Of a stretch of DNA of 64,000 nt, positions 1,897 through 60,782 are shown piece by piece; positions within the stretch are counted from its first letter, which is position 1, and every line of letters starts with the position of its first letter. This DNA is from Trichuris trichiura. Taxonomy: Eukaryota; Nematoda; Enoplea; Trichinellida; Trichuridae. The notes beneath the pieces were generated by a model. It was not told where the DNA came from. It did no database searches and saw nothing but the letters and a program-made list of their open reading frames with translations. A program made the position numbers and the translations under genes. The stretch spans positions 1-64,000 of the forward strand of contig JBAJFE010000004.1 in NCBI GenBank assembly GCA_037903355.1, read 5' to 3'.

Positions 1897-2209
1897 CAGA
1901 ACTAGACCCTTGAAAAATATCTTTATTACGGATTCTCTCCCATTGTGAAGTAAAACAAAAACATTTTTCTTTTCTTCCGGAAAGTTTGGTTTTTGGCGCA
2001 CCGTCTTCACAGCGGTGAGATTATGTATTACGATTAGACACATAATCTCACCGCTGAAGACGGGTCGCGAAAGACCCGAAAGCTCCGGAAGAAAAGAAAA
2101 ATCTTTTTGTTTTACTTCACAACGGGAGAGAATCCGTAATAAAGATATTTTTCAATATGAGAACACACGCTCCCGTACAAAAACATCATGTTTTCAGAAC
2201 TAGACCCTT
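1897..2209. mobile_element. Palindromic Penelope-derived cassette 1
   Basis: A 15-bp direct repeat, CAGAACTAGACCCTT, at 1897-1911 and 2195-2209 brackets an inverted repeat centred near 2033. The right arm (about 2038-2155) is well preserved. The left arm (about 1912-2020) is the same sequence inverted, with several substitutions. The right arm contains a hammerhead-like core at 2054-2081: CTGAAGA, then CGGGTC/GACCCG able to pair as stem II, then GAAA. The arms match the ends of the larger cassette at 56677-57880. This is a non-coding insertion made by a Penelope-type retroelement; the direct repeat is the target-site duplication. Confidence 0.8.
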
Positions 2210-2555
2210 TTCTATTTAAAAAAATTTATGTGCTGACTACTTAATTCAGAGCTTTCGATGCTCTCTAATTCTGTCAGTGATAGCAGGTGTTACAACAAAA
2301 GCTTTTGCTCAGACAGCGTAAAACTTCATTATTCTTCAGGAAGTACGGGCTCACTAAAACAATGCAACACACTGTCTTGGTAACGTATGCTTTGGGAAGA
2401 ACCCAGGACGACAGGAATTCTGTAGAAATAACATTGACACAACAGATAAAAGGCGACAAGTTGAAGAAGAGCGGTTTAGTGAGAGCTGCACAGAACAGTA
2501 GATTTGAACTCATTGGTTATGATAGCTTGACGCGCAGTGGAACTTCCACTTATTT
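2210..2555. other. No supported gene
   Basis: There are overlapping short ORFs on both strands without recognisable domains. Near 2247-2285 a GAGCTTTC...GTCAGTGATA string looks like a decayed Penelope terminal core. Confidence 0.4.
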
Positions 2556-2897
2556 ATGTTTCTTTGGAATGAACAGGTGAAACCATGGTTATTGCAACCC
2601 ACATGTAATGATAGTCAGGCTACGCATTGGTTCGGAGGCCATTTCCTTGCGGGGTTCTTTCGGTGTGTCATGATGGTGAAGTACATGCAGACCTATCGTA
2701 GCATAAAGAAATGTTTACTCTTGCATTATGTTTCTTTGGAATGAACAGGTGAAACCATGGTTATTGCAACCCACATGTAATGATAGTCAGGCTACGCATT
2801 GGTTCGGAGGCCATTTCCTTGCGGGGTTCTTTCGGTGTGTCATGATGGTGAAGTACATGCAGACCTATCGTAGCATAAAGAAATGTTTACTCTTGCA
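2556..2897. repeat. Perfect 172-bp tandem duplication
   Basis: The 172-bp unit starting ATGTTTCTTTGGAATG at 2556 is repeated immediately at 2728. The copies are identical by eye for about 170 bp, up to TTACTCTTGCA at 2897. Each copy carries the same 60-residue ORF, but nothing suggests it is a gene. This is either a very recent tandem duplication or an assembly artefact. Confidence 0.9.
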
Positions 2898-3138
2898 AAC
2901 CATGAGCAAACGTACATAGTTTATTCGGCCGTAAGACAAAGCGTATGAATGTAGCATAACGCTGTGTAATGCCCAACCCACTCAATATACAACATGGTGA
3001 AAGGAAAAAATTTAGACTTCAAAACTGACTGATGGATTTTTTCCTGTAAAGTACCTTTTCGTGTCTTTACGCTGCCATGTAAGCTGCGTTACCTTTATCG
3101 AGGATGACTAAAAGCTCGGTTCTGAGCGGGTGCACAGT

Positions 3139-3274
3139 TATCATCGATAGAGGTCACGCAGCTTTATCATCAAACTTCAACAGCCATTGCGCATACTTAC
3201 AGCTGCAGGAGCACCCACCGACTGAGCGCGCAGCCGTCGTCGATTGAGCATACAGATATCATCGATAGAGGTCA
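3139..3274. repeat. Two-copy direct repeat, 118-bp period
   Basis: An exact 18-bp string, TATCATCGATAGAGGTCA, occurs at 3139-3156 and 3257-3274. It is followed in both places by a similar TTATCATmAAACT segment. These are probably two diverged units of an old tandem repeat. The remainder of 2898-3720 shows no supported gene. Confidence 0.6.
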
Positions 3275-3725
3275 AGCCGTGTTATCATAAAACTACAAGG
3301 AGCTGTGATTTCCCATCTTTTGCTGCATCAAATAGACAAGCGTAACGCGACAGGTTAGCTGATAGTAACCAATGAGGATGAAGTGCGTCGTTTCTTCGCT
3401 GAAACGTTGAACAGTTTGCGTCTCCATTCGCTTCGTGTTCGTGAAAAGTAGAAGGCGGTGCTACCTAGGCTTTGGCATTTGAAATGGGATGAAGTTGTTT
3501 CTTCAGACCACCGTGCCTCGTTGGTTCGTAAGTAACAGTGACGTACTGGGACAGTTTGAACACACTTGCTTTCTTCAGTTTCGTCTACATTCGTCTCTGC
3601 ATACTAAGTGTGGTTCTGTATCGCGCTCTTAGTAGCAACTGAAAAAACCCTGTGACTAACGAAGAATAAGTTCCCTTAATGAAGGAATTTTTCAGCTTAG
3701 TGCATTCTGCGTGCGATCTGTGACA

Positions 3726-4160
3726 AGGAGAAACTACAAAGCTGGATTCAAGTTGGAAATCGTCAAGATGGCAAAAGAAAGCAACAATGCACAGGCGGCC
3801 AGGAAGCATGGCGTTACCGGAAGACGGTAATAGATTAGAGGAAATAGGAAGAGGCCCTGAAGAAGATGCCAAAGAAAAATGCGCAAGTCACTCAGGCATC
3901 GCCTACTAGCCGGAACTAGAGAACAGTTTGGCAGAACGGGTACGACAACAGAGACAGAGCAGTCGTATCATCACAAGGACAGACATGAGAGATCAAGCGA
4001 TGAACTAAGCCCACTGCAACCCACGCTTATACTACGGTTTTACCGTAACGACTGGATGGTGCAGCTGTTTCATGAAAAGGAACTACTTGGTGCTGAGATA
4101 AAAGACGGAAACCGTTATTAAGCCTTTCCAAAAGCGCTCCATTTCTACCCTGTTGCATGA
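3726..4160 (+). pseudogene. Pogo-class transposase N-terminal remnant (POGK-like)
   Basis: With two or three frame changes the plus strand reads as the DNA-binding half of a pogo-class transposase. The first helix-turn-helix is RRNYKAGFKLEIVKMA followed by NNAQAARKHGV. Next come PELENSLAERVRQQR and then GWCSCFMKRNYLVLR, the usual end of the second CENP-B-type helix-turn-helix domain. In-frame stops and shifts are numerous, so it is dead. No terminal inverted repeat was found. The catalytic half of the same transposase type appears at 7630-8905, so the two may be parts of one element split by later insertions. Confidence 0.65.
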
Positions 4161-4169
4161 CACAGAAGA

Positions 4170-5505
4170 CGATGGACAGCCAGACAGTGACGAAGATCAT
4201 ACTTGGCATAGCCGTTTTGTCTCCTGCTATTAATGTTCTCTGCGTCATACGCCATGTTTATCCGCTTCTACAATCTATTTCTCTGTGTTTTACATGCAAC
4301 AGTTGTAATAGACATCCAATAAACCTACTCAATTCGATTCATTTCTCATAGCCTATGCAGTGCTGTACAACACGCGCTAATGGCCAGCTGATGGGTTTTC
4401 CTGTTGAAGTTAAGGCAAGACAGTTTCAATTGGATGGACGATTGGCATTCACGGGAAACTGACTAATCAGACTTGACCTAGACATGAGCAATCAGCGTCG
4501 CTGTAATTGGGCCAATCATTACCACCCTTTACTTAGGTGGGGTAAGTTCTTATAAACCGTAATATACGGTATTTTTCCGAATATTCACAAACAGGAACGC
4601 AGATGCATCATGAGGCTTTCTCAAAGCTTACATGATTTAAAAAGTTAAAGATTCGTAACATTGTTCCAGTTGGTTCAGCGGTTTAGATTGTTCACTGTCT
4701 ATCACCCTCAATAAAATTCACCAGTTGATGACGGAACAAACTGCGCTGAAATTTTCGCCGCTGTAAGTTTTCAGAAGACAGGACGGATGGTTTCGTTAAG
4801 CTAATGACGACTGACCGAAAGGTTTAAATAAACTGTTTTTTGTATCACCTGGCACTGAAAGCTATGCTAAAAACATTGTGCCGCTGTGGTAGTTGACTTA
4901 GTTCATGGTCTTTTTTAGTCTGTGAAATTATGTCAAGTAACACAAAAATTATTAGCCTAAGCTCTAAACACTGACCAATTATTTAGTAAGAACATCTCTT
5001 ACCATTTTTTGCATGCTGGTTGAATCTGATTATTGTACCTTTTATGCGACCGTGCGTATGAAGTAGAATAAAAAAGCCCTGTTCGCCTAACGAATAAATA
5101 TTAAATATGAACAAGACAAAAAATTTTAAGCACTATCGTGTGAGACGTTGCTTTCCTAACTGCATATCAGAGCAGCTCATACGTGCGAGCTACTACCGTT
5201 TTTCCCTATAATAAGACCATCCTGAAGATACGCCTTAGCACTACTTTTAGGATGCTCTTCAGTATAAGGCCTACCCTGAAAATAAGCCCCAATTCTGATT
5301 GTCCACCAGAGAGGCACATCTAACAAGTTCGTTGGAAAATGTGACAACCGTATCATATAGTAAAATACCCAGCATCTGTGTGTATGGTTAAATTGATGTA
5401 ACTGTAGATTTTATGAGTAAAGTGGTTTGGTACATCTGCGTTTGTAGTGATCTTTAACGCAATCTGTCCGAACGAATTCTCCTAGTGATTCTTGCAACTT
5501 TGTGT
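4170..5505. other. No supported gene
   Basis: AT-rich sequence with only short ORFs. I recognise no exon, RNA gene or element in it. Confidence 0.5.
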
Positions 5506-5508
5506 GCA

Positions 5509-5770: not shown

Positions 5771-5776
5771 CAACTA

Positions 5777-5893: not shown

Positions 5894-5899
5894 GTATGC

Positions 5900-6540: not shown

Positions 6541-6544
6541 TCAT

Positions 6545-7625: not shown

Positions 7626-7629
7626 GTCA

Positions 7630-22095: not shown

Positions 22096-24253
22096 CTACT
22101 TCAAATTCCCAGTCAGAAAATGGTCGCTGGATATCAGAGCTGAACAGTAAACTGGGTAGTTCGGTATATGCATGAGGCTTTTAAAGGGCCAGAATTGCTT
22201 TTTCAAAAAAGCGTCAGTTCTAGTCTGGTGCTTGTTTTTACTACATACATAAACGGCAAGGGCAGCCTCCGCGCTGGCTACCCTGCTCAGCCTCGCTAAC
22301 ATGCTCCCGACGTCCTGTTCTTTCAGTTTTTGTACCGCTTCCATCCCATTGTCACTTTCCTCTTCTGCGACGTTTCCTGCGCTACTTGCTTCTACTCTCA
22401 TTCCCAGTTCAGCTACTATAGATTGGAAGATTGTTTGTGGATCAGGTTCGGTAGAAGTGCCTATCTCATCATCTATTGCAACGAAATCCTCGAAATCGGC
22501 TCCTTCAATCTCTGCCTCGCGAGTCGGACTATTCGATCAGAGCTCGACGTCATTCTCTTGGTCTCTGACGAATCCAGCTCTCCTGAAGCAGTTCTTTATT
22601 GCCTTCGGTTGAACCTTATTCCAAAAAGAGCTGATCCAGAGTACAGCATCCAAAGTATTAACGGACATAGCAATCGAAGTCGCTCCCACAGATGAGCTAG
22701 TGGACTTCTGCTTTGCTAATGACCCACTGCAGAAGCTGGGTCCTGTATTTCGCTTTAAATGTCTTGATTACTTCTTGATCTAGGGGCTGGGTCTTTGGGG
22801 AAGTGCTTGGAGACAGGAATTTCAACTTCATGTTTGTAAGGTGCCTCAAGCGGGGATTGCTGGGACAGGTGTCTGCCACTAATAAGATGGAACGTTTGAT
22901 TCACTTCACCTGTTGGTCGACACTTCTTACCTACTCCTCGAATATGGCGGCTGTCATCTAGGAGCATTTATTTGATCTCCAAGTGACGGGGAGGACGTCA
23001 AACCTCGGGTTTCTAGACGCGCGCTGACCTACCGATCACCAATGGCTTCAATTTCTCCCCACTTGCGCTAGCGCAAGAAAGCATAGCGAAGACTTCCTTT
23101 AAGAGCTTCCCGGTTTTGCATTTGTTGCTTTTTAGTACAAGGTTTCTATCAGGCATAGGCTTGAAGAGCAAGCCGCATTCATTAGCACTGAAAATGTCTT
23201 CTTCCTTGAAGCCAATGGCAAAATTACGAAACTCTGCGATGAAGTCTTCCAAGACCTCGGCAGGAACTTCGTTAGATTCACCACATAAGATTTCCTGGGA
23301 GATCTTATGACGGAGATTGAATTTCTCGAGCCAACTGCTTGATGCTTGGAAACCTGTCAACTTGAATTCCAAGGCGAACCTTCTAGCAACTTCCTGAATC
23401 ATTGGGCTATACATCCGTGCATTAGCTGCTCTCGTTTGCCTAAACCAACTTAATGCTGCTTCATTGACTTGGTCCAGGGTAGCTCTCCTCCTTTTTCGCT
23501 GCGCATTTCCGCTTTCATTATTATTTCCGCGTCTCCCAAGTACTCACGTTTACCTCTCTGGATTTTGCTAACGTTAGCCTTGCTGACATGGAACCATTCT
23601 GCTATCTTTCTTAAACTGTTTGTCTCGAGAAAGCGGATAAGATGCGCTTTTTCCTTCAATGCCGGCTCTCTCGGTTCTTTTTGTTCAGGCATAGTGCAAA
23701 CTATAGACCGCTTGGTAGCTATTACTGCGTAAGGCGGAATGCTTTTATTCGTCAAGACATGTTAACGCCACCTCCCGCACGAATACAGCAAAACCAATGA
23801 ATATAACTGAGCTTGACGCTAACGAATACAATTAGGCTCGATTCGTCATATTTCGTGCCATGGGGAAATGCTGTCGACGCCTACGTGGGAGGTCGTGCAA
23901 ACGAGAAAACGCTCAGGCTGCGCCGGCAAGCATAAAAGAAGCATCGTCAAAGCGACGGAACCAGTTCTCTCTTCAAGAAGCTCCAATGCATGATAATGAA
24001 AAACCTCGCTATGTTGAGTAACAGATAGCACACTCAGGCACTGGCGGTTTACAGCACCAAGCGACTAACGCAGAGCAGACTGAAGTGGTCAAAGATGGAG
24101 ATCAACCTAGCATTGGGTCGATACACCACGTCACAGATAAAGCGGTCAACTTCCCACTTACGTAGGTGGTTAACGTATAGAGGTTGTCCTTGCGCTTATT
24201 TACGAGTGGACCAACCAACTTGTCATAATTCGGTCAACTTTGGAGGTTCCACT
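22096..24253 (-). mobile_element. Tigger-type DNA transposon, degenerate
   Basis: The 5' terminus is at the right, near 24253 (minus strand CAGTGGAACCTCC is shared with the other copies). The transposase is broken into pieces: 23450-23755 (helix-turn-helix, ETNSLRKIAEWFHVSKANVSK), 23013-23414 (second helix-turn-helix SSSWLEKFNLRHKISQEI, then SANECGLLFKPMPDRNL and KLKPLVIGRSARV), about 22697-22967 (LSPSTSPKTQPLDQEVIKTFK) and a C-terminal piece down to about 22220. The first catalytic Asp of the usual NADETGLF box reads Asn (SANECGLLF), and several stops are present, so it is inactive. The 3' TIR was not found. Confidence 0.75.
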
Positions 24254-24974: not shown

Positions 24975-25178
24975 CAGTCAGCCCTCGTTATCCGCCGTTA
25001 ATTCGTCCAAAATTCTGAGCGTTTTACCTCGTTAATTTGAATTCCGCGTTGTAAAGGCTACCCTATGAAAAAGGCTGAATACCTTAGGAAGGAAGGAAAG
25101 AGGGCAGGACAAAATACGGAGCTAGAATATAAGCTGAAAATGTTGGACGAATTAACCGCAGATAACGAAGGCTGCCTG
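24975..25178. mobile_element. 204-bp pogo/Tigger MITE
   Basis: The terminal inverted repeats are CAGTCAGCCCTCGTTATCCG on the left and the inverse of CAGGCAGCCTTCGTTATC on the right. TA flanks both sides (24973-24974 and 25179-25180), the duplication expected for this superfamily. It shares its ends with the larger element that starts at 25272. Confidence 0.8.
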
Positions 25179-25197
25179 TATATATATATATATATAT

Positions 25198-25236
<39 letters not shown>

Positions 25237-25271
25237 TAGATATAGATATATATATGCGGTGTATATATATA
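25179..25271. repeat. TA/GATA microsatellite
   Basis: (TA)n and (GATA)n run between two pogo-type elements. The flanking TA target sites may have seeded the expansion. Confidence 0.9.
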
Positions 25272-25384
25272 CAGGCGGCCTTCGTCATCCGCGGTTAATT
25301 CATCCAACATTTTCAGCGTTTTACCGCGTTATATAGGCTACCCTATGAAAAAGGCTAAATAGCTTATGTTCTAGCTGTGTATTT

Positions 25385-26621
25385 CGTTCTGTCCCCTTGA
25401 ATTTCTTCGGGAACGTCGAGGCAGCTACGAAATAAGCCGATGCCGTTTCCCCAGTGATCTTTAAGTTCTTGAGGTTGAAGCGCTTCACTTATTTTGCTAG
25501 CCATCCTTTGCTAGCAGTAAACCTTTTTCTCTCATTCTCTGCAACAACGCCGGAGAAGTGCTCATATAAGCTCAGCGCTTTCTCCTGAATAATTTTTTCG
25601 TCGACGAGGACATTCTTCTGCGACATGTCCTCTATCCAAATGCTTAGAGGTTTCTCGGCCTTTACGAGGATTTTGTTGCGAACTACAGCAGCTCCTTTCC
25701 TCAATGAAGGGTCGGGAAGATCGTTTCCTCGAATCTCAGCTTCCTTCCGTTTTATGGTAGGAATGCTGGATTCATTCTTCTCGATCCTGCGGCCCACTTC
25801 AGCAAATGACAATCCGCTTTTCAAAAAATCAAGGACTTCAACTTTCCCATGAAGAGTAAGGACGCTACGTTGTCTCTTAGCCCTAGAGCAGGGGTGGGGA
25901 ACGTCCGGCCCGCGAGACCATTTTCCGCCTACGCGTTGGGGCAACCGCACATGGATGCGAGATTCAATGAAATGTGATTGTGGGAAGTTATTTTTCATAA
26001 AGCGATAAACGTATTGTATGTGAATCCTAGTAAGAACATAAATCTTGCGTAACAAGCAGGGAGCGTCAGGCTGGCTCGGAAGACTGCGTTGCTGACAGCT
26101 CTCTGTCGACAAACCGACATTGTTAGTCCTCGGTGACAAGCAGTAGGCGCCACTATAGTGTGTGTGCGCGCATAAGTAGCGTGGATCATTGCTTTGTTCG
26201 AGATAACGACTGTCCAGCTTGCTAGAGCACTTCTGCTTTTCTTGCTTTCAGTAGTCACCGGCATCGTTCTCATCGGTTTCTGTCGACCCCCCGTCCTTTA
26301 CGTCTTCGAAGTACAAAAAGGTTATTTTGTTCTCTGTAGTTGCGATTATGTTTTTGACAACTGGGTTGCAGAATTGTCTCAAAATTCTGCCTTTTATCTC
26401 GGAGTTTCCTCACCAGGGAAAAGCAGTTCAAAGCATCCCATTAGGGGTGACTTAATAAACATACGTGCAAATAAAGCAGGTTGTTTTTCGTTTAAGTATG
26501 CTATACGGCCCGCGAACGGTCTTATAAACGTCTAAACGGCCCGCAGCACCAAAAAAGTTCCCACCCCTGCCTCTAGAGGAACCGCTCTGTTCACTTACTT
26601 GCCTTCTCTCAGGCATCCTCC
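25385..26621 (-). pseudogene. Tigger transposase N-terminus split by a hAT insertion
   Basis: The frame starts MPERRQVSEQSGSSR at about 26621 and is cut by the hAT (25889-26569). It resumes as AKRQRSVLTLHGKVEVLDFL, the first helix-turn-helix. It continues AEVGRRIEKNESSI, IWIEDMSQKNVLVDEKIIQ, KALSLYEHF and ASKGWLAK, the CENP-B-type second domain, and fades out by about 25390 in KNLKITGETASA. The pieces line up once the 8-bp duplication is removed. The catalytic domain is absent. Confidence 0.75.
25889..26569. mobile_element. Non-autonomous hAT element
   Basis: The terminal repeats are CAGGGGTGGGGAAC (left) and the inverse of CAGGGGTGGGAAC (right), followed by GGCCCGC-type subterminal sequence on both sides. 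The flanking octamers CCCTAGAG (25881-25888) and CTCTAGAG (26571-26578) differ at one position. They fit the nTCTAGAn target preference known for Charlie/Ac-like hATs. Internal ORFs show no transposase. Confidence 0.8.
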
Positions 26622-38509: not shown

Positions 38510-39700
38510 TAACCAAACATTGACTCTACCGTGATAAAAACGCTTATGATTCATATCAGAAGCTATAATTTTTTCTCTCTTTCTTCGTACGGGGTTTCTC
38601 TATTTTCTAAAAAATCCAGCGTACACGGTAATGAGCCCCGTTCTTCAAAAAAACTTTTATTAATAACCAGAGCTTCAGGCATCGTCTTTGCCCGTTTTCA
38701 GTTGTAAAAAAAACGAGTCCACCACCTAGGTTGGTCGACTATTCAGCAAGTACTCCCACTCAGCCGACCTGGGCAGAGGTAAAATCGGTTGGGTCCTACC
38801 ATGGACTGCGTTGATGTTCGCCTCCAGCCCTAGTCAGCCGTGCAAGAGCATAAGCGTCACTGCTGACCGTCCCGGGCGGCGACAAACGAACAATAATAAT
38901 AGCGGTGAGGTCTCTGCGTAACCCGTCACCTTCGCTGGTTTAAAGTGACTAAGACTTACATAATCTTCTTCCTTGAGTTTGATCATCTTCTCTTACTGAC
39001 GTTGTCCCAAAACCTCCACTCTTCATCCGCCGTTGAGCATTGAAGGGCCTGTGTCACCCTTATTTTTTTGGTTGTTCATTTTTTCTTTCTTTCTTCGTAA
39101 GGGGTTTCTCTGCCTTTAAAAAAATCCAGCGTACACGGTAATGAACCGGACTTTTTTTACCACTGAAGACGGGCAAAGACGATGCCCGAAAGCTCTGGAT
39201 ATTAATAAAAGATTTTTTGAAGAATGGGGCTCATTACCGTGTACGGTGGACTTTTTAAAAAACAGAAGCTATAATGTCAGAATAATGATTAATAACATCA
39301 TAGAAGCCTGGAATGATTTCTCCAAACAATGAATGCATCGCTTTTAGTGGAACCTTATCCCAGATCTGATCTGTAATTCTAAAGATTTTGTACCTTATGA
39401 TCAAGTACGAAAAGTTACTGAAAGCTGCGTTCAGCTAGGTAGGCTTTGAAGAAATTGAATATGAAGATAATGAAAATATTCTGAATTATCAACAGAGTGA
39501 GCTGATCACTGAAGAGCTGCGGGAGAATCAGAAGGGAGAGAAGCAGATGATAAAAAATCTGAAAGCTCTTTCGCGATAGCCGACGATTCCGGATCTCTCA
39601 GATGCTCTAGAAGCTATTGAATAACGTTTTAAATGGTTTAAAAACAAGGATTGTAAAGTCCAACGCAACTACAGGAGGTATCAGAGTTAGCCTGTAGCCA
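38510..39700 (+). pseudogene. Tigger transposase C-terminal remnant, split by a Penelope cassette
   Basis: Reading across the inserted cassette (38570-39262), one frame continues: IDSTVIKTLMIHIRSYN, then VRIMINNIIEAWNDFSKQ, stop, NLIPD. Further on are LGRLGFEEIEYEDNE, QSELITEELRENQKGE and PDLSDALEAIE. The IxEAWN...W..L.PD pattern and acidic tail resemble the C-terminus of Tigger-type transposases. It is a dead remnant, useful mainly because it dates and orients the cassette insertion. Confidence 0.5.
38557..39275. mobile_element. Palindromic Penelope-derived cassette 2
   Basis: The 13-bp duplication CAGAAGCTATAAT (38557-38569 and 39263-39275) brackets 693 bp. Inverted copies of the terminal unit lie at its ends (about 38585-38715 and 39075-39240, both containing CAGCGTACACGGTAATGA). 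A central segment of about 350 bp is not shared with the other cassettes. The right arm has a hammerhead-like core at 39163-39191: CTGAAGA, CGGGC/GCCCG, GAAA. The insertion interrupts a Tigger remnant reading frame. Confidence 0.8.
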
Positions 39701-39987: not shown

Positions 39988-40311
39988 TGTAAAGAGTTCA
40001 TTTTGAAGATATAATGTCTTCGTACGGGACCAAATAATTTCATTTTGGCTTCTTTTGTACGGATTTTCTGTGTCCCGTTGAATAAACTTTTATTAATAAA
40101 CTTTTCTTAATAAAATGTCCGTAGCTTTCGGGTCCGAACTTGACCCGTCATCAGCGGTCTAAGGATTGACGTCAATCCTTAGACCGCTGATGACGGGTCA
40201 AGTTCGGACCCGAAAGCTACGGACATTTTATTAAGAAAAGTTTATTAATAAAAGTTTATTCAACGGGACACAGAAAATCCGTACAAAAGAAGCCAAAATG
40301 TAAAGAGTTCA
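39988..40311. mobile_element. Palindromic Penelope-derived cassette 3: perfect 260-bp palindrome
   Basis: The 13-bp duplication TGTAAAGAGTTCA (39988-40000 and 40299-40311) flanks the insertion. Positions 40041-40300 form a palindrome with 130-bp arms, no mismatch and no spacer, centred between 40170 and 40171 (GATTGACGTCAATC). Each arm has the most canonical hammerhead-like core in the window: CTGATGA at 40187-40193, stem II CGGGTC/GACCCG, GAAA at 40212-40215, and its mirror on the minus strand. The left end has about 40 bp outside the symmetry. Lack of mismatches points to a very recent origin or gene conversion between arms. Confidence 0.9.
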
Positions 40312-42426: not shown

Positions 42427-42853
42427 AACCTACATTTATCTTGAACACTGGATACTTCTTAACGGGGCTGAAGATTTTCACGATGAAGTTTTCGTACGGC
42501 TTTTGTCTTGCCCGTTCTTAGTTTCTGAAATAAACCAAAGCAAATGCCCTACCAACAGACAGATGAGCAGTTATTAAGAAAAGTTCAGAACAATATTATC
42601 CGTTCAGAGCTTTCCGGACCAGCCTTGTGCCGTCTTCAGCGATGACGATTGTTTAAAACCGCTCACAACCATCATCGCTGAAAACGGCACAAGGTTGGGG
42701 CAGAAAGCTCCGAAAGGGTAGCATCATTCTGAATTTTCCTTAATAACTGCTCATCCATCCGTCGGTAGGGCGTTTGTGCTGGTTTTTTCCAGAAGCTAAG
42801 AAGGAGCAAGACAAAAACCGTACGAAAACTCTATCACGAAAACCTACATTTAT
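42427..42853. mobile_element. Palindromic Penelope-derived cassette 4
   Basis: The 13-bp duplication AACCTACATTTAT (42427-42439 and 42841-42853) flanks two inverted arms of roughly 165 bp around a centre near 42665. The arms begin GTTTTCGTACGG and carry CCCTACCrACrGAtrGATGA. They have diverged by roughly a fifth, so this is an older member. Core boxes are CTGAAGA on the left arm (minus) and CTGAAAA on the right arm, which breaks the hammerhead consensus. Confidence 0.75.
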
Positions 42854-51231: not shown

Positions 51232-51379
51232 TGTAACACGCGAGGATAACACAAACCGTTTATTCGTCTCGGACACAGCTACACGCAACAACCAGCCAAC
51301 TCGCGACCTCCCTCGCAGCTACTGTCTCTTCTCTCATTCTCAGGTTATGCACTCTCTGCTCATATCCCGACGCATTACA
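51232..51379 (-). repeat. 3' LTR
   Basis: 148 bp. It differs from the 5' LTR at three positions, all transitions. On the minus strand it contains AATAAA (GACGAATAAACGG), a likely polyadenylation signal. A purine-rich tract on the minus strand (AAGGAAGGGATAA, 51380-51392) directly precedes it and overlaps the pol stop codon; this is the likely plus-strand primer site. Confidence 0.9.
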
Positions 51380-54300
51380 TTATCCCTTCCTTGGAAAAGT
51401 CATGTCCTCATGACGACGATGCCGTTGCGTCTCGATTATGTAATCTGCAAAACGGCAGGGAGGGCGCGTAGCCCGCCTGGGCCTTTCCTTTGACAGCACG
51501 GGTCTAGAGCCGGAAGGGTGCTCGAACAGCTGTGCACCAGCGTTTTCCGTGCACACGTCCTCCCCGATGACCATTCTTGCAGGCAGGTAGCCGCCGGCCT
51601 GTCGCCTTCCACTCCAGGTTTTCAAGTCCGGTTGACCGCTTGGCGGCCGGGGACTAGTCTGCCGTCGCATACCTGCATGTTCTCTTGCTGATTTTTCAGG
51701 CAGGCGGATGTCAGGCGGACAAGTCTTCAGGCGATCTGCGTGCACCACGTGCACATCTCTCCTCCTTTTAGCATGCTGAATTCTATACGTAACTGGAGAT
51801 AACTGGGCGGTTATTCGGTATGGACCCTTCCAGGGCCTCAAAAACTTCCGTTTTTGTCCCTGAAGGACACGGGGCACAAACAATAAAACTGTGTCACCAA
51901 CGTTAAGGTGCCGTGGACGAACATGGGAATCGTAGTACAGCTTCTGTCGCCTTGCCTCTCTCGTTGCCCTACTCTTGGCCTTGTCGTCCAATCGCTTCAG
52001 TATTCCTTCCAAATTTTCCACGTGCCGTTCCGGTGTTTGAGATGTTGATTCAAGATGCTGTGCGACGTCCTCAGGGACACGGCAGTGCCGGCCGAACATC
52101 ATTCTGTAGGGCGACTGCCCGGTACTACTGTGAATGCTCACTCTATATGCCATCATTACCTTCGGTAAAATGAGATCCCAATCTTTCCCATTGGGAGCAA
52201 TAGTTTTGGCGAGCATGTTCCACACGGTCCGGTTCATGCGTTCCGCCTGACCATTACTAGACGGATGGTAAGGCGTAGTTCTCGTCTTCTGAACGCCTAG
52301 TTCATCGCAAACCCCTTTAAACAATTCGGATTCGAATTGCGTTCCTTGGTCCGTGTGTATCACTTCTGGGACTCCATACCTGCACAGGACTTCTTGCACT
52401 AATGCCGTTGCTACCGTCTCTGCCTGTTGATTCAGCATTGGGATGGCCTCCGCGTATTTCGAGAAAGCGTCCACCATCATTAGAATGTAGCGGTTTCCTT
52501 TGTCAGTCATCGGTAGAGGGCCAGCTATGTCCAGTGAAAGTTTCTGCCAAGTGTGGCTTACTTCCTGTAGCTGTAGCGGGGACCTCTTTTTGGGGAATAC
52601 ATTATTTCGCGTGTTGCATTCCCAACACGATCTAACGTAACGCTTCACATCCGAACGATAGCCCGGCCAGTAGAAACGTTCACTCACATGCGCTAAAGTT
52701 TTTCCTTCGCCAAGGTGGCCCGCCGTGGCCGCACTGTGAGTTTCTTGCAAAACTTGCGGAACCATTTCGCTAGGGACAAGCAACTGCAACCTTACGGAGC
52801 CATCGTCCTCATACCACTCACGCCACAGGACTTCGTTTTGCAAACGGAGACGATCCCAGTTAGCCAGTAACAGAGAAGTTGCTTTTGACTGTCTTGTTGG
52901 CAGTTTTGCTTTACTGTTTGACTTTTTTGCTAACCAAAACGGTGCGATGTCCAAGTTTCGTAACTGTTTCTCCTTCACACCATTCATATCTGAGAAGCTA
53001 ATGGCAGCGATCTCGGCCGCGGTGGCGGCGTTCGCGGTGGGACATGGTACCTCGCCGTTCCGACCACACTGCTTGCACACGATACGCGACAAGCTATCAG
53101 CATTCGCATGTTGTCGTCCAGTCCGATGGACAACTGTAAAACGGAAACGCTGCAATTTATATTGCCACCTGGCCCATTGGCCGTCGGCATCCTTAAAAGA
53201 CTGAAGCCACTGTAGGGCACCGTGGTCTGTACGGAGAACGAATTCTTCTTGTAAGTATGGGGCGAATTGTTCAATGAAAGTTATGACTGCTAGCATTTCA
53301 CGCCGTGTTACACAGTATTTCTGCTCCGCACGAGAGAGTATTCGACTGCCGAAGGCCACGGGATGTTCTTGGCCCTTTTCATCCAACTGAGATAACACAG
53401 CGCCAATTGCTACCATGCTCGCATCAGTATCCAAAATGAAGGATTTGGTGAAATCCGGAAAACGCAGAACAGGCTCACTCGTCAAAGCGTCCTTTAGCTT
53501 GGAAAATGCATCTGCACAATCTCTGGACCAAACGAATTCCACGTTCTTCTGTGTAAGTCGATAAAGAGGCGCGGAGATCCCGGCAAATCCGCGCACAAAA
53601 CGGCGGTAATATGCCGCCAAGCCGAGGAAGCTCTGCAGTTCATGGAGGCATGTCGGCGTAGGGTAGCTTTTGACCTTCTCCGTAAGCGTTTTATCAGGAG
53701 ATACACCAGCTGCCGAGATTAAATGTCCAAGAAAGGTTATTTCTTTACGAAGAAATTGACATTTCGTAGGGCTGATCTTTAGCCCTGCTTGCCGAAAACG
53801 TTGCAATACTTTCCCCAGGCGTTCTAAGTGCCCATTGAAAGTGCGGCTAAAAATTATTACATCATCCAGATAAACGAGGCATGCCTCCCACTTAAGCCCA
53901 GCGAGAGTTAGTTCCATTAGCCGTTGAAAGGTAGCTGGGGCCCCTGTCAGTCCGAAGGGCATCACGTTAAAGTGGAACAACCCATCGTGAGTAATAAAGG
54001 CTGTCTTTTCCTTGGCCTCTTGTTCTAATTCTACCTGCCAGTAGCCACTTAGGAGATCGATAGTAGAAAAGAACTGGGTTCCAGACAGAGAATCCAAGGT
54101 CTCGTCAATTCTTGGCAAGGGATAAGCATCCTTTTTCGTCAGCTCATTCAGTTTTCTGTAGTCCACACATAAGCGAATCGACCCGTCCTTCTTGCGAACT
54201 GGCACAACTCCTGCCGCCCACGGGCTCTCAGATGGCTCAATCAATTTGTCATCGATGAGATTTCTTAATAACGCGCTAACCTCTTTCCTATCTTTCGGGC

Positions 54301-55366
54301 ATAAGCGCTGCAGCGGCTGCCTTACCGGTCTCGCTCCTTCTGTTAACGTTATCTTGTGGCGTAAAACCTTTGTGCGACCTAAGTCGCGTTTCCCAACGGC
54401 GAAAACGTCACGGTAATTCCACAGAACACCAAATAGCATACTTATTTGCCTCTCGTCCAGACTCGCACCAGCCGCTTCTCTCGCTAACTTCATCAGCGCA
54501 GGTTTCAAGGGAGAATGGCTCATCTGATTCACGTTTGTCGTCGCCAGTGCCGCTGAGCAAGCGTCTTGCGTCTCTATGCCGGTGAGCTTCCCCAGCAGTG
54601 CCCCCTTTCTCACGCAGAACTCCTGTTGCGTAGGGTTCAGAATGAACGTCCTAAATCTACCATTTAGCACGGTGACAAGGCTCCTGGCCGCATAACCGCC
54701 TTGCCGTTCAAAGTGATGACTACTTTCAAAAATTGCATCACCTGAAAATGTCCTCTTAATAGAGCAGGACACTGCTGCTGTCGATCTAGGAGCGACATTC
54801 CTGTCTTCTGCAACGTATACGCATTCTTCCACACAACTGGGCTGATCATCTGCCTTGAGTACTAAAGGCACTTGCGCGGCACCTTCGCAGGACAAAACAT
54901 TCCGCTTGAGGTCCACGACAAATCCATGTAGCGTAAGAAAGTCAATTCCCAATAAAGCTGAATAATGCAATCTGTCGACCACAACGGCATCGATTGCGAA
55001 ATTTTTCGAGGCAAGGCGGATACGGAGGCGTGCTTCGCCGACAACAGGAAGAGGAGAACCATCAGCGAGAATCAGTCGAACAGCGCTTCGCTGAAGCGCC
55101 ATGTGGCCGCCGACTCTCTGGAAAACGTCTGAGCTGATCAAAGTTCTGCCTGCGCCAGTATCTACCAGCATACACAAATGTATCCCATTCACGGATGCGT
55201 TAACAAATACCCGTGGGGCAACGGTTGCATTTGCCGTCGGTTGGTTCTGGACCGCCTTCAGTTGTTCCAGGCCATCCGCTCGGTCCCTGTGGATGGCCCT
55301 CCTGTGTTTACCGAATAACTCGGGCATCGACGAGCAAGGTGCCCATAGCCCTGACATTTCCAACAC
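51380..55366 (-). CDS. pol: Gypsy Pol polyprotein
   Basis: 1,328 codons from the first Met in frame, probably made by -1 frameshifting from gag within 55258-55366. Domains in order: aspartic protease (LVDTGAGRTLISSDVF), reverse transcriptase (VRKKDGSIRLCVDYRKLN, then LVYLDDVIIFS as the YxDD box), RNase H (FILDTDASMVAIGAVL, LRTDHGALQWL), and integrase with a His/Cys zinc domain (SCWEC) and DDE core (LDIAGPLPMTDKGNRYIL, IHTDQGTQFES, SSNGQAERMN). A GPY-type end is present (RPWKGPYRITAQLSPVTYRI). All catalytic residues I can see are present. I found no standard slippery heptamer in the overlap. Confidence 0.93.
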   Translation of the reverse strand: MLEMSGLWAPCSSMPELFGKHRRAIHRDRADGLEQLKAVQNQPTANATVAPRVFVNASVNGIHLCMLVDTGAGRTLISSDVFQRVGGHMALQRSAVRLILADGSPLPVVGEARLRIRLASKNFAIDAVVVDRLHYSALLGIDFLTLHGFVVDLKRNVLSCEGAAQVPLVLKADDQPSCVEECVYVAEDRNVAPRSTAAVSCSIKRTFSGDAIFESSHHFERQGGYAARSLVTVLNGRFRTFILNPTQQEFCVRKGALLGKLTGIETQDACSAALATTNVNQMSHSPLKPALMKLAREAAGASLDERQISMLFGVLWNYRDVFAVGKRDLGRTKVLRHKITLTEGARPVRQPLQRLCPKDRKEVSALLRNLIDDKLIEPSESPWAAGVVPVRKKDGSIRLCVDYRKLNELTKKDAYPLPRIDETLDSLSGTQFFSTIDLLSGYWQVELEQEAKEKTAFITHDGLFHFNVMPFGLTGAPATFQRLMELTLAGLKWEACLVYLDDVIIFSRTFNGHLERLGKVLQRFRQAGLKISPTKCQFLRKEITFLGHLISAAGVSPDKTLTEKVKSYPTPTCLHELQSFLGLAAYYRRFVRGFAGISAPLYRLTQKNVEFVWSRDCADAFSKLKDALTSEPVLRFPDFTKSFILDTDASMVAIGAVLSQLDEKGQEHPVAFGSRILSRAEQKYCVTRREMLAVITFIEQFAPYLQEEFVLRTDHGALQWLQSFKDADGQWARWQYKLQRFRFTVVHRTGRQHANADSLSRIVCKQCGRNGEVPCPTANAATAAEIAAISFSDMNGVKEKQLRNLDIAPFWLAKKSNSKAKLPTRQSKATSLLLANWDRLRLQNEVLWREWYEDDGSVRLQLLVPSEMVPQVLQETHSAATAGHLGEGKTLAHVSERFYWPGYRSDVKRYVRSCWECNTRNNVFPKKRSPLQLQEVSHTWQKLSLDIAGPLPMTDKGNRYILMMVDAFSKYAEAIPMLNQQAETVATALVQEVLCRYGVPEVIHTDQGTQFESELFKGVCDELGVQKTRTTPYHPSSNGQAERMNRTVWNMLAKTIAPNGKDWDLILPKVMMAYRVSIHSSTGQSPYRMMFGRHCRVPEDVAQHLESTSQTPERHVENLEGILKRLDDKAKSRATREARRQKLYYDSHVRPRHLNVGDTVLLFVPRVLQGQKRKFLRPWKGPYRITAQLSPVTYRIQHAKRRRDVHVVHADRLKTCPPDIRLPEKSAREHAGMRRQTSPRPPSGQPDLKTWSGRRQAGGYLPARMVIGEDVCTENAGAQLFEHPSGSRPVLSKERPRRATRPPCRFADYIIETQRHRRHEDMTFPRKG

Positions 55367-56127
55367 TGCAACCGTCGCCGAAGTCGTTCTCTCGGCTCAT
55401 TTCGCATGCGCCGTCTAGCATTGACGACCATAACGTTTTCAGTTCCATTAGAGATCACCAGTTGTCGCAACTGACGAATGCTCTGTTCTATGTTGTCCAA
55501 GCGGCTCTCAATGTCGGTTACTGCTGGTGGTTCAGAGGAGACTACTGGATCCATTATGCTCGCTGGTGACCCCCATTCTTCAGCCGAAGCAACTGCTGAC
55601 GGTCGGCGCAGTGAAGACTGCAGCGTTTGCTGAACTGTCAGTTCGCGGACTGACTCAGCCACTGTCGTGGGCATCGCTCGACGCACCAGATACTGCAGCT
55701 GCGGATCTTGGATCGATTGCAGCAACTGCGCGTTGACCATAGCGTCAACAGCAGAGCCGTCCAACGACGGATACGCCTTCTCTGCTAACGACAGCAACGC
55801 TTCTGCATGAGCTGTCCAGCTCTCCGTTGGCAATTTCCTTCTCGACCGAAACGCCATTTCATGTACAAGCTGCTGCCCCGGAGCCTCAAACGTCTCTGCT
55901 AAAGCAGCCTTCGCAGCATCAAAAGACCGAACAGCACTTTCCGGCAACCGCCGAAAGACACGTCCAGCCGCCCCTGTTAACCGTAACTGCAGCCATTGTA
56001 ATTTCACGTCGTCCGTCCAGCCGTTCAGCCGGCTACAGATTTCGAAAGCAGCGATCCATTCGTGCCAGTCGCCATCTCCATTAAACGCCTCCGGCGATGC
56101 AGCGATCCTCACAGGGTTGGGAACCAT
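55258..56127 (-). CDS. gag: Gypsy Gag polyprotein
   Basis: 289 residues from the ATG at 56127 (MVPNPVRIAASPEAF). The open frame extends upstream into the LTR, but this is the first Met after it. A capsid-like helical region (WHEWIAAFEICSRLNGW, LQWLQLRLTGAAGRVFRRL) is followed by a coiled stretch and one zinc knuckle, CWKCQGYGHLARRC, in the CX2CX4HX4C pattern. The gag stop lies 109 nt inside the pol frame. Confidence 0.9.
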   Translation of the reverse strand: MVPNPVRIAASPEAFNGDGDWHEWIAAFEICSRLNGWTDDVKLQWLQLRLTGAAGRVFRRLPESAVRSFDAAKAALAETFEAPGQQLVHEMAFRSRRKLPTESWTAHAEALLSLAEKAYPSLDGSAVDAMVNAQLLQSIQDPQLQYLVRRAMPTTVAESVRELTVQQTLQSSLRRPSAVASAEEWGSPASIMDPVVSSEPPAVTDIESRLDNIEQSIRQLRQLVISNGTENVMVVNARRRMRNEPRERLRRRLQCWKCQGYGHLARRCPSYSVNTGGPSTGTERMAWNN

Positions 56128-56165
56128 CAGTCCTCCTGGAGTCGCCTGGCCTTCGGGGCTCACAT

Positions 56166-56181
56166 CCTGTTCGCTGCGCCA
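56166..56181 (-). promoter_or_regulatory. Candidate primer-binding site
   Basis: One base after the 5' LTR the minus strand reads TGGCGCAGCGAACAGG. TGG is the standard start of a primer-binding site (complement of tRNA CCA). I cannot name the tRNA. Confidence 0.6.
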
Positions 56182-56182
56182 T

Positions 56183-56330
56183 TGTAACACGCGGGGATAA
56201 CACAAACCGTTTATTCGTCTCGGACACAGCTACACGCAACAACCAGCCAACTCGCGACCTCCCTCGCAGCTACTGTCTCTTCTCTCATTCTCAGGTTACG
56301 CACTCTCTGCTCATACCCCGACGCATTACA
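56183..56330 (-). repeat. 5' LTR
   Basis: 148 bp, identical to the 3' LTR except at three transitions. It should carry the element's promoter; no TATA box is obvious. Confidence 0.9.
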
Positions 56331-56664: not shown

Positions 56665-57892
56665 AGAAGATAAAATTGAAAACATGATGCTTTTGTACGG
56701 GAGCGTGTGTTTTCTTATTGAAAAATATCTTTATTACGGATTCTCTCCCGTTGTGAAATAAAACAAAAAGATTTTTCTTTTCTTCCGGAGCTTTCGGGTC
56801 TTTCGCGACCCGTCTTCAGCGGTGAGATTATATGTAGTGCGTGGGGTACCATTCATCTTCCATCGCTTTCCGTGGTTTTAAAACGAGAGTTTAAAGATTT
56901 TAAAGTTTTTCCTTCTTTGTCTGTCAGCTGCCATTTCCTTACTCCTGTATTCTTGTAGGGAATTTGTCCGTGTATTTAGGCGAGCTTCTAGTTTTTTCTT
57001 CCATTTTTAACCATTTGTTCCAAAAAATGTTATTGATTTAAACCTTTTCTTCAATATATGTCTCATCTGATTTATAGTATGTCCAGTTTTGCATTTTGCG
57101 TGTCATCTGCCAAGGGAGCAGCAGTTGTGGAGTGTAATGATATTGCTCCATAAATTACTGATGTCTGCTCCTTGATCACGGTTGAAGGTCAAATTGTTTC
57201 TAATATACAGCGCTTCCTTAAGTTTCCGTAGCCGTAAGTTACTTTCGTAGCACAGTTCTCCACTACGGTGAAGCGGTCGTTTGCAATTTACGGCATGTTC
57301 TACCACAGCTGAAGCTTCAATTGCTTCACCCAAGAACCCTGTGCTACGAAAGTAACTTACGGCTACGGAAACTTAAGGAAGCGCTGTATATTAGAAGCAA
57401 TATGACCTTCAACCGTGATCAAGGAGCAGACATCAGTGATTTATGGAGCAATATCATTACACTCCACAACTGCTGCTCCCTTGGCAGATGACACGCAAAA
57501 TGCAAAACTGGACATACTATAAATCAGATGAGACATATATTGAAGAAAAGGTTTAAATCAATAACATTTTTTGGAACAAATGGTTAAAAATGGAAGAAAA
57601 AACTAGAAGCTCGCCTAAATACACGGACAAATTCCCTACAAGAATACAGGAGTAAGGAAATGGCAGCTGACAGACAAAGAAGGAAAAACTTTAAAATCTT
57701 TAAACTCTCGTTTTAAAACCACGGAAAGCGATGGAAGATGAATGGTACCCCACGCACTACACATAATCTCACCGCTGAAGACGGGTCGCGAAAGACCCGA
57801 AAGCTCCGGAAGAAAAGAAAAATCTTTTTGTTTTATTTCACAACGGGAGAGAATCCGTAATAAAGATATTTTTCAATATGAGAAGATAAAAT
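56665..57892. mobile_element. Palindromic Penelope-derived cassette 5 with coding arms
   Basis: The 12-bp duplication AGAAGATAAAAT (56665-56676 and 57881-57892) flanks a huge inverted repeat. The arms are 56717-57255 and 57339-57877, 539 bp each and differing at about four positions by eye. The 83-bp spacer continues the left copy. Each arm, read outward from the centre, encodes the C-terminal end of a Penelope GIY-YIG protein (CYESNLRLRKLKEALYIR, FNRDQGADIS) and then the terminal repeat. A hammerhead-like core lies at 57775-57804 (CTGAAGA, CGGGTC/GACCCG, GAAA), mirrored at about 56790-56819. A one-sided tail (56677-56716) matches the outer end of cassette 1. It is two Penelope 3' ends joined head to head. 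Confidence 0.9.
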
Positions 57893-58340: not shown

Positions 58341-58896
58341 CTAAGCGTTCTTCTTTTGTTACGTGGATTGGGTGCATTCACTGATGAAAGTGGATTGCAG
58401 AGGTTCGCTAATTCGCCCATCGATACGAAAAACTTATTATTCTGCCGTATTTGAATATATTCGTCCGCTGCCTAATTCGTCAAAAGTCTTTAGAACTAAT
58501 GCAAGGCAAAACTGAAGGGATACTAGCTGACTTAAGATTACAATTCTAGCTTCTGGGAGACAGATGGTCGGCACGGAAGGTGATCTACCATTATCTCTAC
58601 TCTTGTCACATCAACACTGACCGGGCCGCGCCATTATGGATCCCTTACCGAACGAACGCCTAATCCGTTCATTGCCTGATTTTGTCAATCTGGGAGTGGA
58701 CTGCTTCAGACCCATCCAAGTTGTAGGAATTCGAGAGCCAGTAGGACGACTTTACTTATAAAGAGGCAACTCGCGATTAAAGGCATGATAGTACAACCGA
58801 CTAACTAAAAGCAGGTTAGGTACTATATGAGGGTGAGTAGGTGTCGTCAGAATGCTCCAACGTGCCACTCAGAGTGATGTTATCTTCAGATAGTCG
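58341..58896. other. No supported gene
   Basis: Nothing recognised. Confidence 0.4.
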
Positions 58897-59075
58897 CCCC
58901 GCCACTACGGACTATCAGTTCACTGAGAATGTAATGCTGACACCGACTCAGTAACTTTGTGAGGATGTTGGTGACATTGTCGCTGCTTGGAACGTAATTC
59001 AACTTAATGGCTCCATCGTTGACCTTGTCCTGGATGAAGTGACGCTTAATCGCGATGTGCTATGTCCGTACGTTA
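58897..59075 (-). pseudogene. Ty1/copia RNase H C-terminal fragment
   Basis: The minus strand reads RT-stop-HIAIKRHFIQDKVNDGAIKL then NYVPSSDNVTNILTKLL. This is the unmistakable end of copia Pol (RTKHIDIRxHFIRDxVxxGxIxLxYVPTxxxxADxxTKxL), with the Lys codon before HI changed to a stop. About 50 codons survive. Confidence 0.8.
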
Positions 59076-59088
59076 TCAACCCAGTTTC

Positions 59089-59418
59089 TCAATTGCAGAC
59101 GCTATCGCCGTCATTACGGAGGCAGAACACGAGATCTTGTCCAGCCGCAAACCTGTCCAGCAGCCTTCGCTTTATGTATTCGTACAGGGAGTTACTGTCA
59201 GGGTCCGGTAGATCCTCTACTTCGAGGGCCACGCTTTCACTCAGGGAAGCAACAATACAGTAAAACTTAGTCAATGACGTGCTAATCTGGCTAAAGGCGA
59301 ATTGCGCCTCAGTTTTTGCGAACCATACCTTTGCGTTGAGTGGCCAGAAGGGCAGCAGCTTTACAGCCACGGCTGCAGACGCGTGTACTTTTCCGACGTT
59401 CAAGGTCTCCTTTTGCAA
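59089..59418 (-). pseudogene. Gypsy-type gag fragment
   Basis: A 109-codon minus-strand ORF includes AVAVKLLPFWPLNAKVWFAK, TEAQFAFSQISTSLTKFYCI and VASLSESVALEVEDL. This pattern (KLPPFW...P..WF...EAQF...T..T.F..VV..L) is the capsid start of Mag/CsRn1-like Gypsy gag proteins and differs from the intact element at 51-56 kb. The ORF ends abruptly beside copia sequence. Confidence 0.7.
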
Positions 59419-59975
59419 TAAGGGCCACTACTGTAGCGGTATCGTGAACCGACTACTAAAGAAGGGCTCACTTGTTCGAATGAGACAACAACAACCTGTA
59501 TGTACTGCACCCATGTCAAGGTAATTGAGTACAACCTGGAAAAAGAGTGCTCAGGCCAACGTCCGCTGCACCACAAGGACTTAACTATATGAAAATGTAT
59601 GCCCCCATTGCGAAAAAAACCAAAGTTCACTAACAATTAATTTTTTGTGACCCTGACTTTCGCATTTGCGCGGCTTTCGCCGGGTTGGATAGCTACGCGC
59701 ATAGATAACCGCTTTCGTGCTTACCTGCACACTCTTACAACATACTGTACAATTTCCTGACAGGTGTTTTCTTTCCCGGTTGTTATTCTTAAGTTTCTAG
59801 TACTTGTTGATTCCTAGCTTACTTTGCGTATTTTCAAACCGACAAATCACTTTGCGTTTCTGACTTTTTATCTCTACCAATACATTTTGCTGAAAGCAGT
59901 TGTCGGCTTGTGCGCGCTTTTTACACTGTTGTTACATTTATCACAGTTTAAGCCACATGCTTTGAATACGGAACG
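59419..59975. other. Gap before the small two-exon gene
   Basis: No gene recognised. An overlapping ORF in another frame starts at 59824 and runs into the next gene; I treat it as a shadow. Confidence 0.35.
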
Positions 59976-60370
59976 ATGGCTCGACTTCTCGGTAGTCACT
60001 TTCTGGCCAAGTTTGACGTGCAACTGTTATCTGAACATATTTCTCCTGGCCGTCCGTTTAAAGTCGCCCACCGGTTTACTACCTCAGCCATGCTTTGCAA
60101 GAAGATGCTTATGCCGACATACGATCATGTGCCTATTCCATACAAGCCATTCAGCAGCAGTTATCAAAAGGAAAACTACGTGTTCAATAGAATACTGACC
60201 GTTGGCGCGATAATGCTATTATCAACTTGCACTTTTGTGGGACCAATGCTAAAACTGTCGCGACGCGCTTTTTACATTTTTCTTTTTAGATGCACGCCTA
60301 TGATATATGGGATCTCGAAGCACTTCGAGCACCGAAGTCCTACCGCAATCGAGTAGTTCATCGGGACTGA
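59976..60370 (+). CDS. Small single-pass, probably mitochondrial protein (2 exons)
   Basis: Exons 59976-60236 and 60290-60370 are joined at phase 0 across a 53-bp intron (GTGGGA...TTTTTAG) to give 113 residues. The N-terminus is basic and free of acidic runs up to HRFTTSAMLCKK, as in a mitochondrial presequence. Then comes MPTYDHVPIPYKPFSSSYQK and a single TM segment (ILTVGAIMLLSTCTF), ending in YDIWDLEALRAPKSYRNR. The PTYDxxPxPxxPxxxxYQ...N pattern before one TM helix resembles the Deltameth_res (prag01)/COX7B-like family of small inner-membrane proteins. That family link is tentative. Confidence 0.5.
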
Positions 60371-60560
60371 ACGATACAATGCCTTGGAAAGTCCTGAAAA
60401 ACAGCCTACGTGAAAACTTAAAATGAATTTGTGCAGGTTCGCGTTAAAGTTGAAAAGTTCACGAAAAAAATATTCGTTTCTTTGATTGCCGTCTAGAAGT
60501 GCTCGGTCCGAAACATATCGCTCTGAAGACAGTTTGACAGGCGTTTAAAAATAACAGCTG

Positions 60561-60782
60561 CGACGTTTTATATTGGTCGAAATAGTTGAAAACGGTCTAT
60601 TCACTGTTGACCATAACAAGAAAATGTGTCGAATGAGAGCTTTCGGAAACGGACAGTTTCCGAAAGCTCCGATTCGATACATTTTTTTACTACGCTAAAC
60701 GGAGAATAAACCGTTTTCAACCAATGCGATCAAATACGACGACTCGTTGTGGAGAGAACACGTATCTTCGACGTTTTATATT
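60561..60782. mobile_element. Palindromic Penelope-derived cassette 6
   Basis: The 14-bp duplication CGACGTTTTATATT (60561-60574 and 60769-60782) brackets an imperfect inverted repeat. The arms share TTGAAAACGG, AAATGTrTCGAAT and GAGCTTTCGGAAAC. The centre (GGAAACGGACAGTTTCC) falls inside what would be stem II of the hammerhead-like core, so CTGANGA is lost and only GAAAGC remains on each arm. It lies between the small mitochondrial-like gene and the Smad gene. Confidence 0.75.

Follow-up and report, generated by a model that had tools for sequence, protein, structure and literature searches.

The route by which Penelope-like elements (PLEs) insert into a genome is unsettled: work on Adineta vaga from 2013 suggests self-priming on an antisense template as the origin of head-to-head copies (PMC3846280), and work from 2024 on PAc, a Poseidon element of Anolis carolinensis, leaves the later steps open (PMC11167929). 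In the A. vaga cases described, Penelope carries head-to-head inverted pseudo-long terminal repeats (pLTRs), one of which can have an optional 31-bp tail, with an inverted pLTR that is 37 bp shorter in one element and duplications of 8-10 bp (PMC3846280). Purified PAc cuts and extends both target strands in vitro, and reverse transcription begins at two neighbouring sites, one at each boundary of the genomic tail, the start site being no different between the strands (PMC11167929). Here we describe palindromic PLE insertions in the first 64,000 nucleotides of Trichuris trichiura contig JBAJFE010000004.1 (the window; this contig is C9 of the 62 that make up the 72.7-Mb genome) and in copies sampled elsewhere in the genome (L-numbered loci). 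Nearly all of the sampled palindromes with a flanking duplication join two element ends head to head, one with a terminal tail and one lacking it. The palindromes are likely to have arisen by separate integrations, with reverse transcription primed from the two 3′ ends of a staggered cut, one at each of two neighbouring sites on element RNA.

The first-pass annotation of the window reported six palindromes flanked by exact repeats of 12-15 bp, and all six sets of coordinates hold, the arms being inverted and the longest inverted pair per site being 79-99% complementary. Insertion 1 (1897..2209) lies between direct repeats of 15 bp at 1897-1911 and 2195-2209, and consists of a tail-less arm at about 1912-2026 on the plus strand, a join and a tailed arm at about 2038-2194 on the minus strand. 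Insertion 2 (38557..39275; repeats 38557-38569 and 39263-39275, 13 bp) has a tailed arm that runs from 38570 to about 39076, including probable interior sequence, followed by a partial tailed arm at 39080-39147 and a tail-less arm at 39152-39262. In insertion 3 (39988..40311; repeats 39988-40000 and 40299-40311, 13 bp) a tailed arm on the plus strand (40001-40172) and a tail-less arm on the minus strand (40169-40298) overlap by 4 bp at the join. Insertion 4 (42427..42853; repeats 42427-42439 and 42841-42853, 13 bp) likewise has its tailed arm on the plus strand (42440-42652) and its tail-less arm on the minus strand (42665-42840), as does the long-armed insertion 5 (56665..57892; repeats 56665-56676 and 57881-57892, 12 bp), with arms at 56677-57326 and 57323-57880. 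Insertion 6 (60561..60782) is diverged; between its 14-bp repeats (60561-60574 and 60769-60782) lie a tail-less arm at about 60575-60650 and a tailed arm at about 60651-60768 that starts around 35 nt further out. To these we add a seventh insertion at 20..177, with 13-bp repeats at 20-32 and 165-177, a tail-less arm starting at 33 and a tailed arm extending to 164. A script check confirmed that both duplication copies are identical at all seven sites, and when boundaries were placed randomly in the same loci, a repeat of at least 10 bp arose by chance in 2 of 1213 trials. The description of the arms as symmetrical did not survive this comparison: one arm per insertion has a tail, by which it extends about 30-40 nt further outward than its partner.

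The arms fall into five families, A (insertions starting at 33, 1912 and 56677), B (40001), C (42440), D (38570) and E (60575), in agreement with the earlier view that several diverged subfamilies are present, and copies of each occur elsewhere in the genome. Family B is young, with many copies at 98-100% identity, and its exact core motif is found at 212 places in the genome (93 on the plus and 119 on the minus strand). For families A, B and C, 40 candidates were scored of 891, 470 and 798 first-look candidates, respectively, the counts being lower bounds. The left arm of insertion 2 continues into a 361-bp segment, which is probably element interior and not host DNA since it accompanies this arm at many loci across the genome; capture of host DNA at this site was rejected on the same ground.

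On their sequence features we assign these elements to the canonical PLEs of the GIY-YIG type, as the first-pass annotation had proposed in naming Penelope, because long copies of families A and B contain reverse transcriptase and GIY-YIG pieces and the insertions have PLE terminal structure. A Pfam search matched RVT_1 in a piece of the long copy L047, which gave no GIY-YIG match, and matched GIY-YIG (PF01541) above the cut-off in one piece of L026; the second piece tested at each locus (reverse transcriptase at L026, GIY-YIG at L047) gave no Pfam match. In protein comparisons, the top six relatives of the reverse transcriptase piece of L026 are all Trichuris suis proteins (63-80% identity), five of which carry PF00078 or PF28514 and some of which are named reverse transcriptase. 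This reverse transcriptase would be of PLE type, given its union with GIY-YIG and the terminal structure; 71 GIY-YIG matches were found in the whole genome. The features found are thus those of a canonical PLE, namely a reverse transcriptase, a C-terminal GIY-YIG domain, inverted terminal repeats with an optional tail of 30-40 nt and a target-site duplication. With regard to the pLTR-open reading frame (ORF)-pLTR arrangement, L047 carries a partial 5′ repeat (q1-97, where q is the arm coordinate counted from the outer end) ahead of its ORF. A DNA transposon with terminal inverted repeats, such as a miniature inverted-repeat transposable element, failed as a candidate, the duplications being 10-18 bp in 40 insertions and the arms unequal.

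Paired arms obey a near-strict rule, in which one arm starts near q1 and carries a tail of about 40 nt and its inverted partner starts near q40. In the main locus set we examined 67 candidate pairs, of which 62 were one-tailed, two were two-tailed and three were unclear; one of the unclear and two of the one-tailed cases are mispairings inside L054, L047 and the family-D insertion of the window. A repeat of at least 10 bp encloses 43 of these pairs, and with eleven more (L090, L091, L099, L101, L095, L098, L047, L060 and the window insertions at 33, 38570 and 60575) direct repeats at inverted pairs across the genome amount to a sample of 54 enclosed insertions. A single-script recount found exactly one tailed and one tail-less arm in 52 of the 54, and L060 is a 53rd case by hand, since its tail-less arm is internally gapped with a first piece that begins at q39. 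Leaving aside three loci with low-complexity repeats (L050, L059 and L078), the rule holds in 51/51, 50 by script and L060 by hand. A further candidate, L049, in which the tail-less arm would measure 24 nt, was not counted as a pair, having no enclosing repeat of at least 6 bp. The sample, which is not unbiased, contains the tailed and tail-less kinds of arm in nearly equal numbers (34:37 in family A, 32:30 in family B), so that independent choice of ends would yield matched pairs about half of the time. The arms of one insertion are also more alike on average than arms of different insertions, at 0.028 versus 0.054 in family A, 0.012 versus 0.017 in family B and 0.114 versus 0.170 in family C (permutation p 0/5000, 0.0014 and 0/5000, respectively).

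The likeness of arms within an insertion, together with the head-to-head inversion and the palindromic joins, would also be expected if a transcript or complementary DNA (cDNA) folded back at its end, copied itself and was then inserted as a hairpin. However, such fold-back self-priming predicts equal outer ends, with two tails or none, against the 52 or 53 one-tailed insertions in 54, and it is strongly disfavoured by this as well as by the outer ends and the joins considered below.

The outer ends fall in separate clusters, at q1-13 for tailed family-B arms, q38-47 for tail-less family-B arms and q36-47 for tail-less family-A arms. In the three end classes analysed, the duplication ends in bases that agree with the RNA immediately past the start point above the level of shuffled assignments, with mean matches of 2.0 nt versus 1.01 for A tail-less ends (p = 0.0005; 20 of 22 insertions), 1.95 versus 1.18 for B tailed ends (p = 0/2000; 20 of 20) and 2.15 versus 1.12 for B tail-less ends (p = 0/2000; 20 of 20). 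Target microhomology is therefore seen at both kinds of outer end, which does not fit insertion of a folded-back hairpin. The tail-less start coincides with an ATG in families A (q40) and B (q43); this looks like the start codon of the element ORF, in which case the tail would encode the first 13-14 ORF residues.

The duplicated stretches are richer in A+T (0.688) than their flanks (0.626) in the 40 insertions, the window as a whole being at 0.571. Uninterrupted copies of the target, each with the duplicated stretch present once, were found for three insertions: the target of L044 is a Penelope copy (95% identity over 119 bp), that of L024 is a satellite (92% over 120 bp) and that of L055 is a repeat at 25766-25885 of the window (86% over 120 bp, with three differences within the duplicated stretch). 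These support the earlier identification of the flanking repeats as target duplications; for the seven window insertions no uninterrupted site was found in the stretches compared, the spanning match for the insertion at 56677 being its own right flank. Inverted repeats are prone to artefacts and these palindromes are known here from the assembly, yet a fold-back artefact of library or assembly is very improbable, in that the arms of an enclosed pair are unequal, every such pair lies within an exact repeat of its own and three of the target sites exist uninterrupted elsewhere.

At the other end of the arms, where the two halves of a palindrome meet, there is a preferred position. The inner end lies at q150-169 in 37 of 71 family-A arms and within q180-289 in none of them, with 20 arms that reach q300 or beyond or run past the examined stretch; among 62 family-B arms, 25 end at q170-189, four at q200-299, and 15 reach q300 or beyond or run past the examined stretch. 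These counts drop arms below 85% identity and include a few from copies of one tandem array. The preferred inner ends of both families lie about 20 nt upstream of a motif, present in both arms of insertion 3 (40120..40222) with its sense strand outward on each side, which we take to be hammerhead-like from its core. A hammerhead ribozyme is built from the core CUGANGA, stem II, GAAA, a U-H cleavage site and stem I. We compared 70 distinct strings, chosen by a motif that fixes the core. The first three pairs of stem I form in 68, 66 and 68 of the 70 and are changed on both sides (CCG/CGG, CCA/TGG, TCG/CGA, ATG/CGT), pairs 4 and 5 hold in just 7/70 and 18/70, and the U-H is present in 68/70. Stem II pairs well with one extra preceding base (61, 67, 64, 67 and 59 of 70) and poorly without it (first pair in 5/70). 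An Rfam search of the window returned no hammerhead family at E 1 or better; its matches were microRNA precursors alone, all below the curated cut-offs and of a sort that a long hairpin can produce. As a separate observation, family-B arms have a minor second cluster of inner ends at q110-130, near the predicted hammerhead cut and off it. Template ends at this predicted cut were considered and rejected, given that few arms end there and that the B ends at q114-116 miss the expected q121.

The joins themselves bear on how often the head-to-head form has arisen. An exact-pattern search of the whole genome identified 22 close-joined palindromes (13 of family A and nine of family B). Their joins are of 21 different kinds, which means that almost every one of these palindromes formed on its own, in keeping with the proposal of the first-pass annotation that the head-to-head form arose or spread repeatedly. 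Among 38 joins counted by hand, 24 contain 1-17 nt that do not align to the arms (some of which may be element sequence), five are blunt and nine overlap; this count excludes two-tail pairs and L026, L029, L047 and L054. The make-up of the joins looks like the joining of two separate ends, in contrast to what fold-back self-priming would leave. We also weighed the possibility that the joins contain an extra base from an RNA cap, but the idea was too weak to keep.

The varied joins also bear on the suggestion in the first-pass annotation that the palindromes may form a non-autonomous class of hairpins. The members of such a class would be transcribed and mobilised in trans as units. Short palindromes are common, family B has its many near-identical copies, and one pair of loci behaves as such a class would: L009 and L021 (a C19/C21 pair) share an identical 28-nt join, found nowhere else under the pattern used, and a sequence variant confined to their tailed arms among the stretches examined, with different duplications and flanks that have no similarity. 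These two may represent a palindrome that moved as a unit. However, none of the 21 joins recurs at many sites, and coding copies (L047 and six GIY-YIG pairs) can share the plan of the short insertions. A hairpin class is thus a decidedly unlikely explanation for most of the palindromes, with room left for occasional copying of a whole palindrome.

Coding copies are arranged in the same way. L047 is a 5.16-kb insertion in which two long coding copies stand head to head within a 12-bp repeat and follow the one-tail plan, and all six neighbouring GIY-YIG pairs within 6 kb of each other are head to head. Neighbouring family-B motifs within 6 kb, outside a tandem array, are head to head in 15/15 cases among the 100 places listed of the 212. 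The array lies near the far end of contig C9 (6.39-6.48 Mb; 6390000-6476913; L092, L107) and repeats family-B arms in mixed order, with three neighbours head to head, five in the opposite arrangement and six on the same strand; some of its spacings are about 7.5 and 13.7 kb. Chance proximity of two unrelated insertions, or a later inversion between single arms, could explain individual pairs, and L020 and L066, discussed below, may be such cases; but a single repeat encloses the pair in 54 cases, nearly all enclosed pairs are one-tailed, and the listed neighbours outside the array are uniform in orientation, making this explanation extremely improbable as a general one.

We therefore favour two-sided priming, which probably accounts for the duplications, the inversion, the unequal ends, the two-ended microhomology and the varied joins. 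The GIY-YIG endonuclease of the PLE would cut the target with a stagger, leaving 3′ overhangs that, to judge from the length of the duplications, measure about 10-18 nt. Both overhangs would then prime cDNA synthesis on element RNA. Priming at an outer site would produce the tailed arm, and priming about 40 nt nearer the RNA 5′ end, in families A and B at the ATG, would produce the tail-less arm. The two cDNAs would extend toward the RNA 5′ end, to which the preferred inner end may correspond, and joining of their free ends would place head-to-head arms between the duplications; longer cDNAs would yield the coding head-to-head copies. The arm kinds are about equally common in the sample, yet nearly every enclosed pair has one of each, as might be expected if both strands were served by a single RNA in which each start site is present once. 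The wider proposition, that two-sided target priming on a single RNA with two start sites, one per strand, is the normal PLE route, that a completed event therefore leaves a tailed and a tail-less arm head to head, that the short hairpins are run-off copies of the RNA 5′ leader and that palindromes record the starts and the RNA 5′ end, is in our judgement about evenly balanced.

Several observations weigh against two-sided priming as set out here. L078, of family C, is tail-less on both sides by script, its repeat being a low-complexity 10-mer. L020 and L066 have two tails each and no repeat was found at either; they may be separate insertions lying side by side, because the repeat is missing and the two arms of each pair match the query to different degrees (86/97% and 98/90% identity, respectively). 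The first searches used queries containing the tail and kept the best candidates, so that tail-free pairs could be missed, although tail-free queries recovered four further enclosed pairs (L090, L091, L099 and L101), all one-tailed; most copies in the genome lie outside the sample. In the main locus set a repeat of at least 10 bp was found in just 7/15 family-C pairs and 0/6 family-D pairs, the latter count including the window D insertion in mispaired form, whose 13-bp repeat was found separately. The use of one RNA is a weak step, since the own partner of a tailed arm is its nearest tail-less arm in only 6/25 cases in family A, 8/19 in B and 6/14 in C, ties included. The examined stretches also contain 24 partnerless arms, a figure that includes the actual far arm of L047. 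In 11 of 19 family-A and family-B loci a single tail-less arm stands alone, several of these with less than 300 nt of flank; many single arms run into coding sequence and their partner may lie past the examined stretch. Three of 13 short single arms tested (L014, L064 and L103) have an enclosing repeat, and since one-armed insertions of this kind exist, two-sided priming is not obligatory. The join and tailed-arm variant common to L009 and L021 are unexplained by the model. Finally, an upstream terminal repeat was absent in eight long copies traced toward their 5′ ends, so that the run-off point was not confirmed by a full-length 5′ end in any of them.

The remainder of the window contains other mobile and host-type sequences. 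A Gypsy-type element on the minus strand (51326-56229) has a 1338-residue open frame with protease, reverse transcriptase, RNase H and integrase, a CCHC gag-like frame and a 151-bp direct repeat (97%) near both ends. Open frames at 23013-23543 and 25489-26247 contain Tc5-type transposase DNA-binding domains, and a long imperfect hairpin with an AT-repeat loop at 25156-25294 gives weak matches to microRNA models. Animal-type domains are present, for example EGF and MH1, a partial (Smad-type) copy of the latter being located at 61859-62338.

These palindromes provide a genomic test of the insertion route, in which the one-tail rule and the two-ended microhomology favour two-sided priming and oppose fold-back. 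If the same holds in other animals, inverted PLE structure would be a signature of insertion and not of later damage, and palindromes in any genome would record RNA start sites, template ends and target cuts. In LINE-1 twin priming, both sides of a staggered cut prime cDNA synthesis and an inverted part is left between the duplications; the inverted part in LINE-1 is normally a different inner stretch, whereas both arms described here begin at the same element end. Retrozymes are described as short and non-coding with a hammerhead-like motif, in which they are like the present elements, and the present insertions differ in their inverted arms and in arm ends that lie off the predicted cleavage point (PMC4918200, PMC7761336). 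Inverted terminal repeats with one tail are already known for PLEs, and what appears to be new is how nearly strict the one-tail rule is and the case for priming from both sides, together with the two-ended microhomology, the preferred inner end and the independence of the joins. Our literature search, mostly of titles and abstract openings, returned no count of one-tailed PLE insertions and no proposal of two-sided priming for PLEs, which does not prove their absence.

The present insertions have inverted repeats, of which one bears a tail, and short duplications in common with A. vaga Penelope; the A. vaga elements are of low copy number and mostly retain an ORF, whereas many insertions here consist of two short arms only, with one tail per pair in 52-53 of 54 sampled insertions (PMC3846280). 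With PAc the present elements share two starts that bound the tail and a hammerhead motif near the ORF start; the main PAc start lies 111-118 bp into the ORF, whereas the starts in the present elements lie at the ATG and about 13-14 codons past it, and the main text on PAc does not assign its two starts to opposite sides of a single insertion (PMC11167929). The present data thus unite the structure known from A. vaga with the two-start, two-strand chemistry of PAc in vitro.

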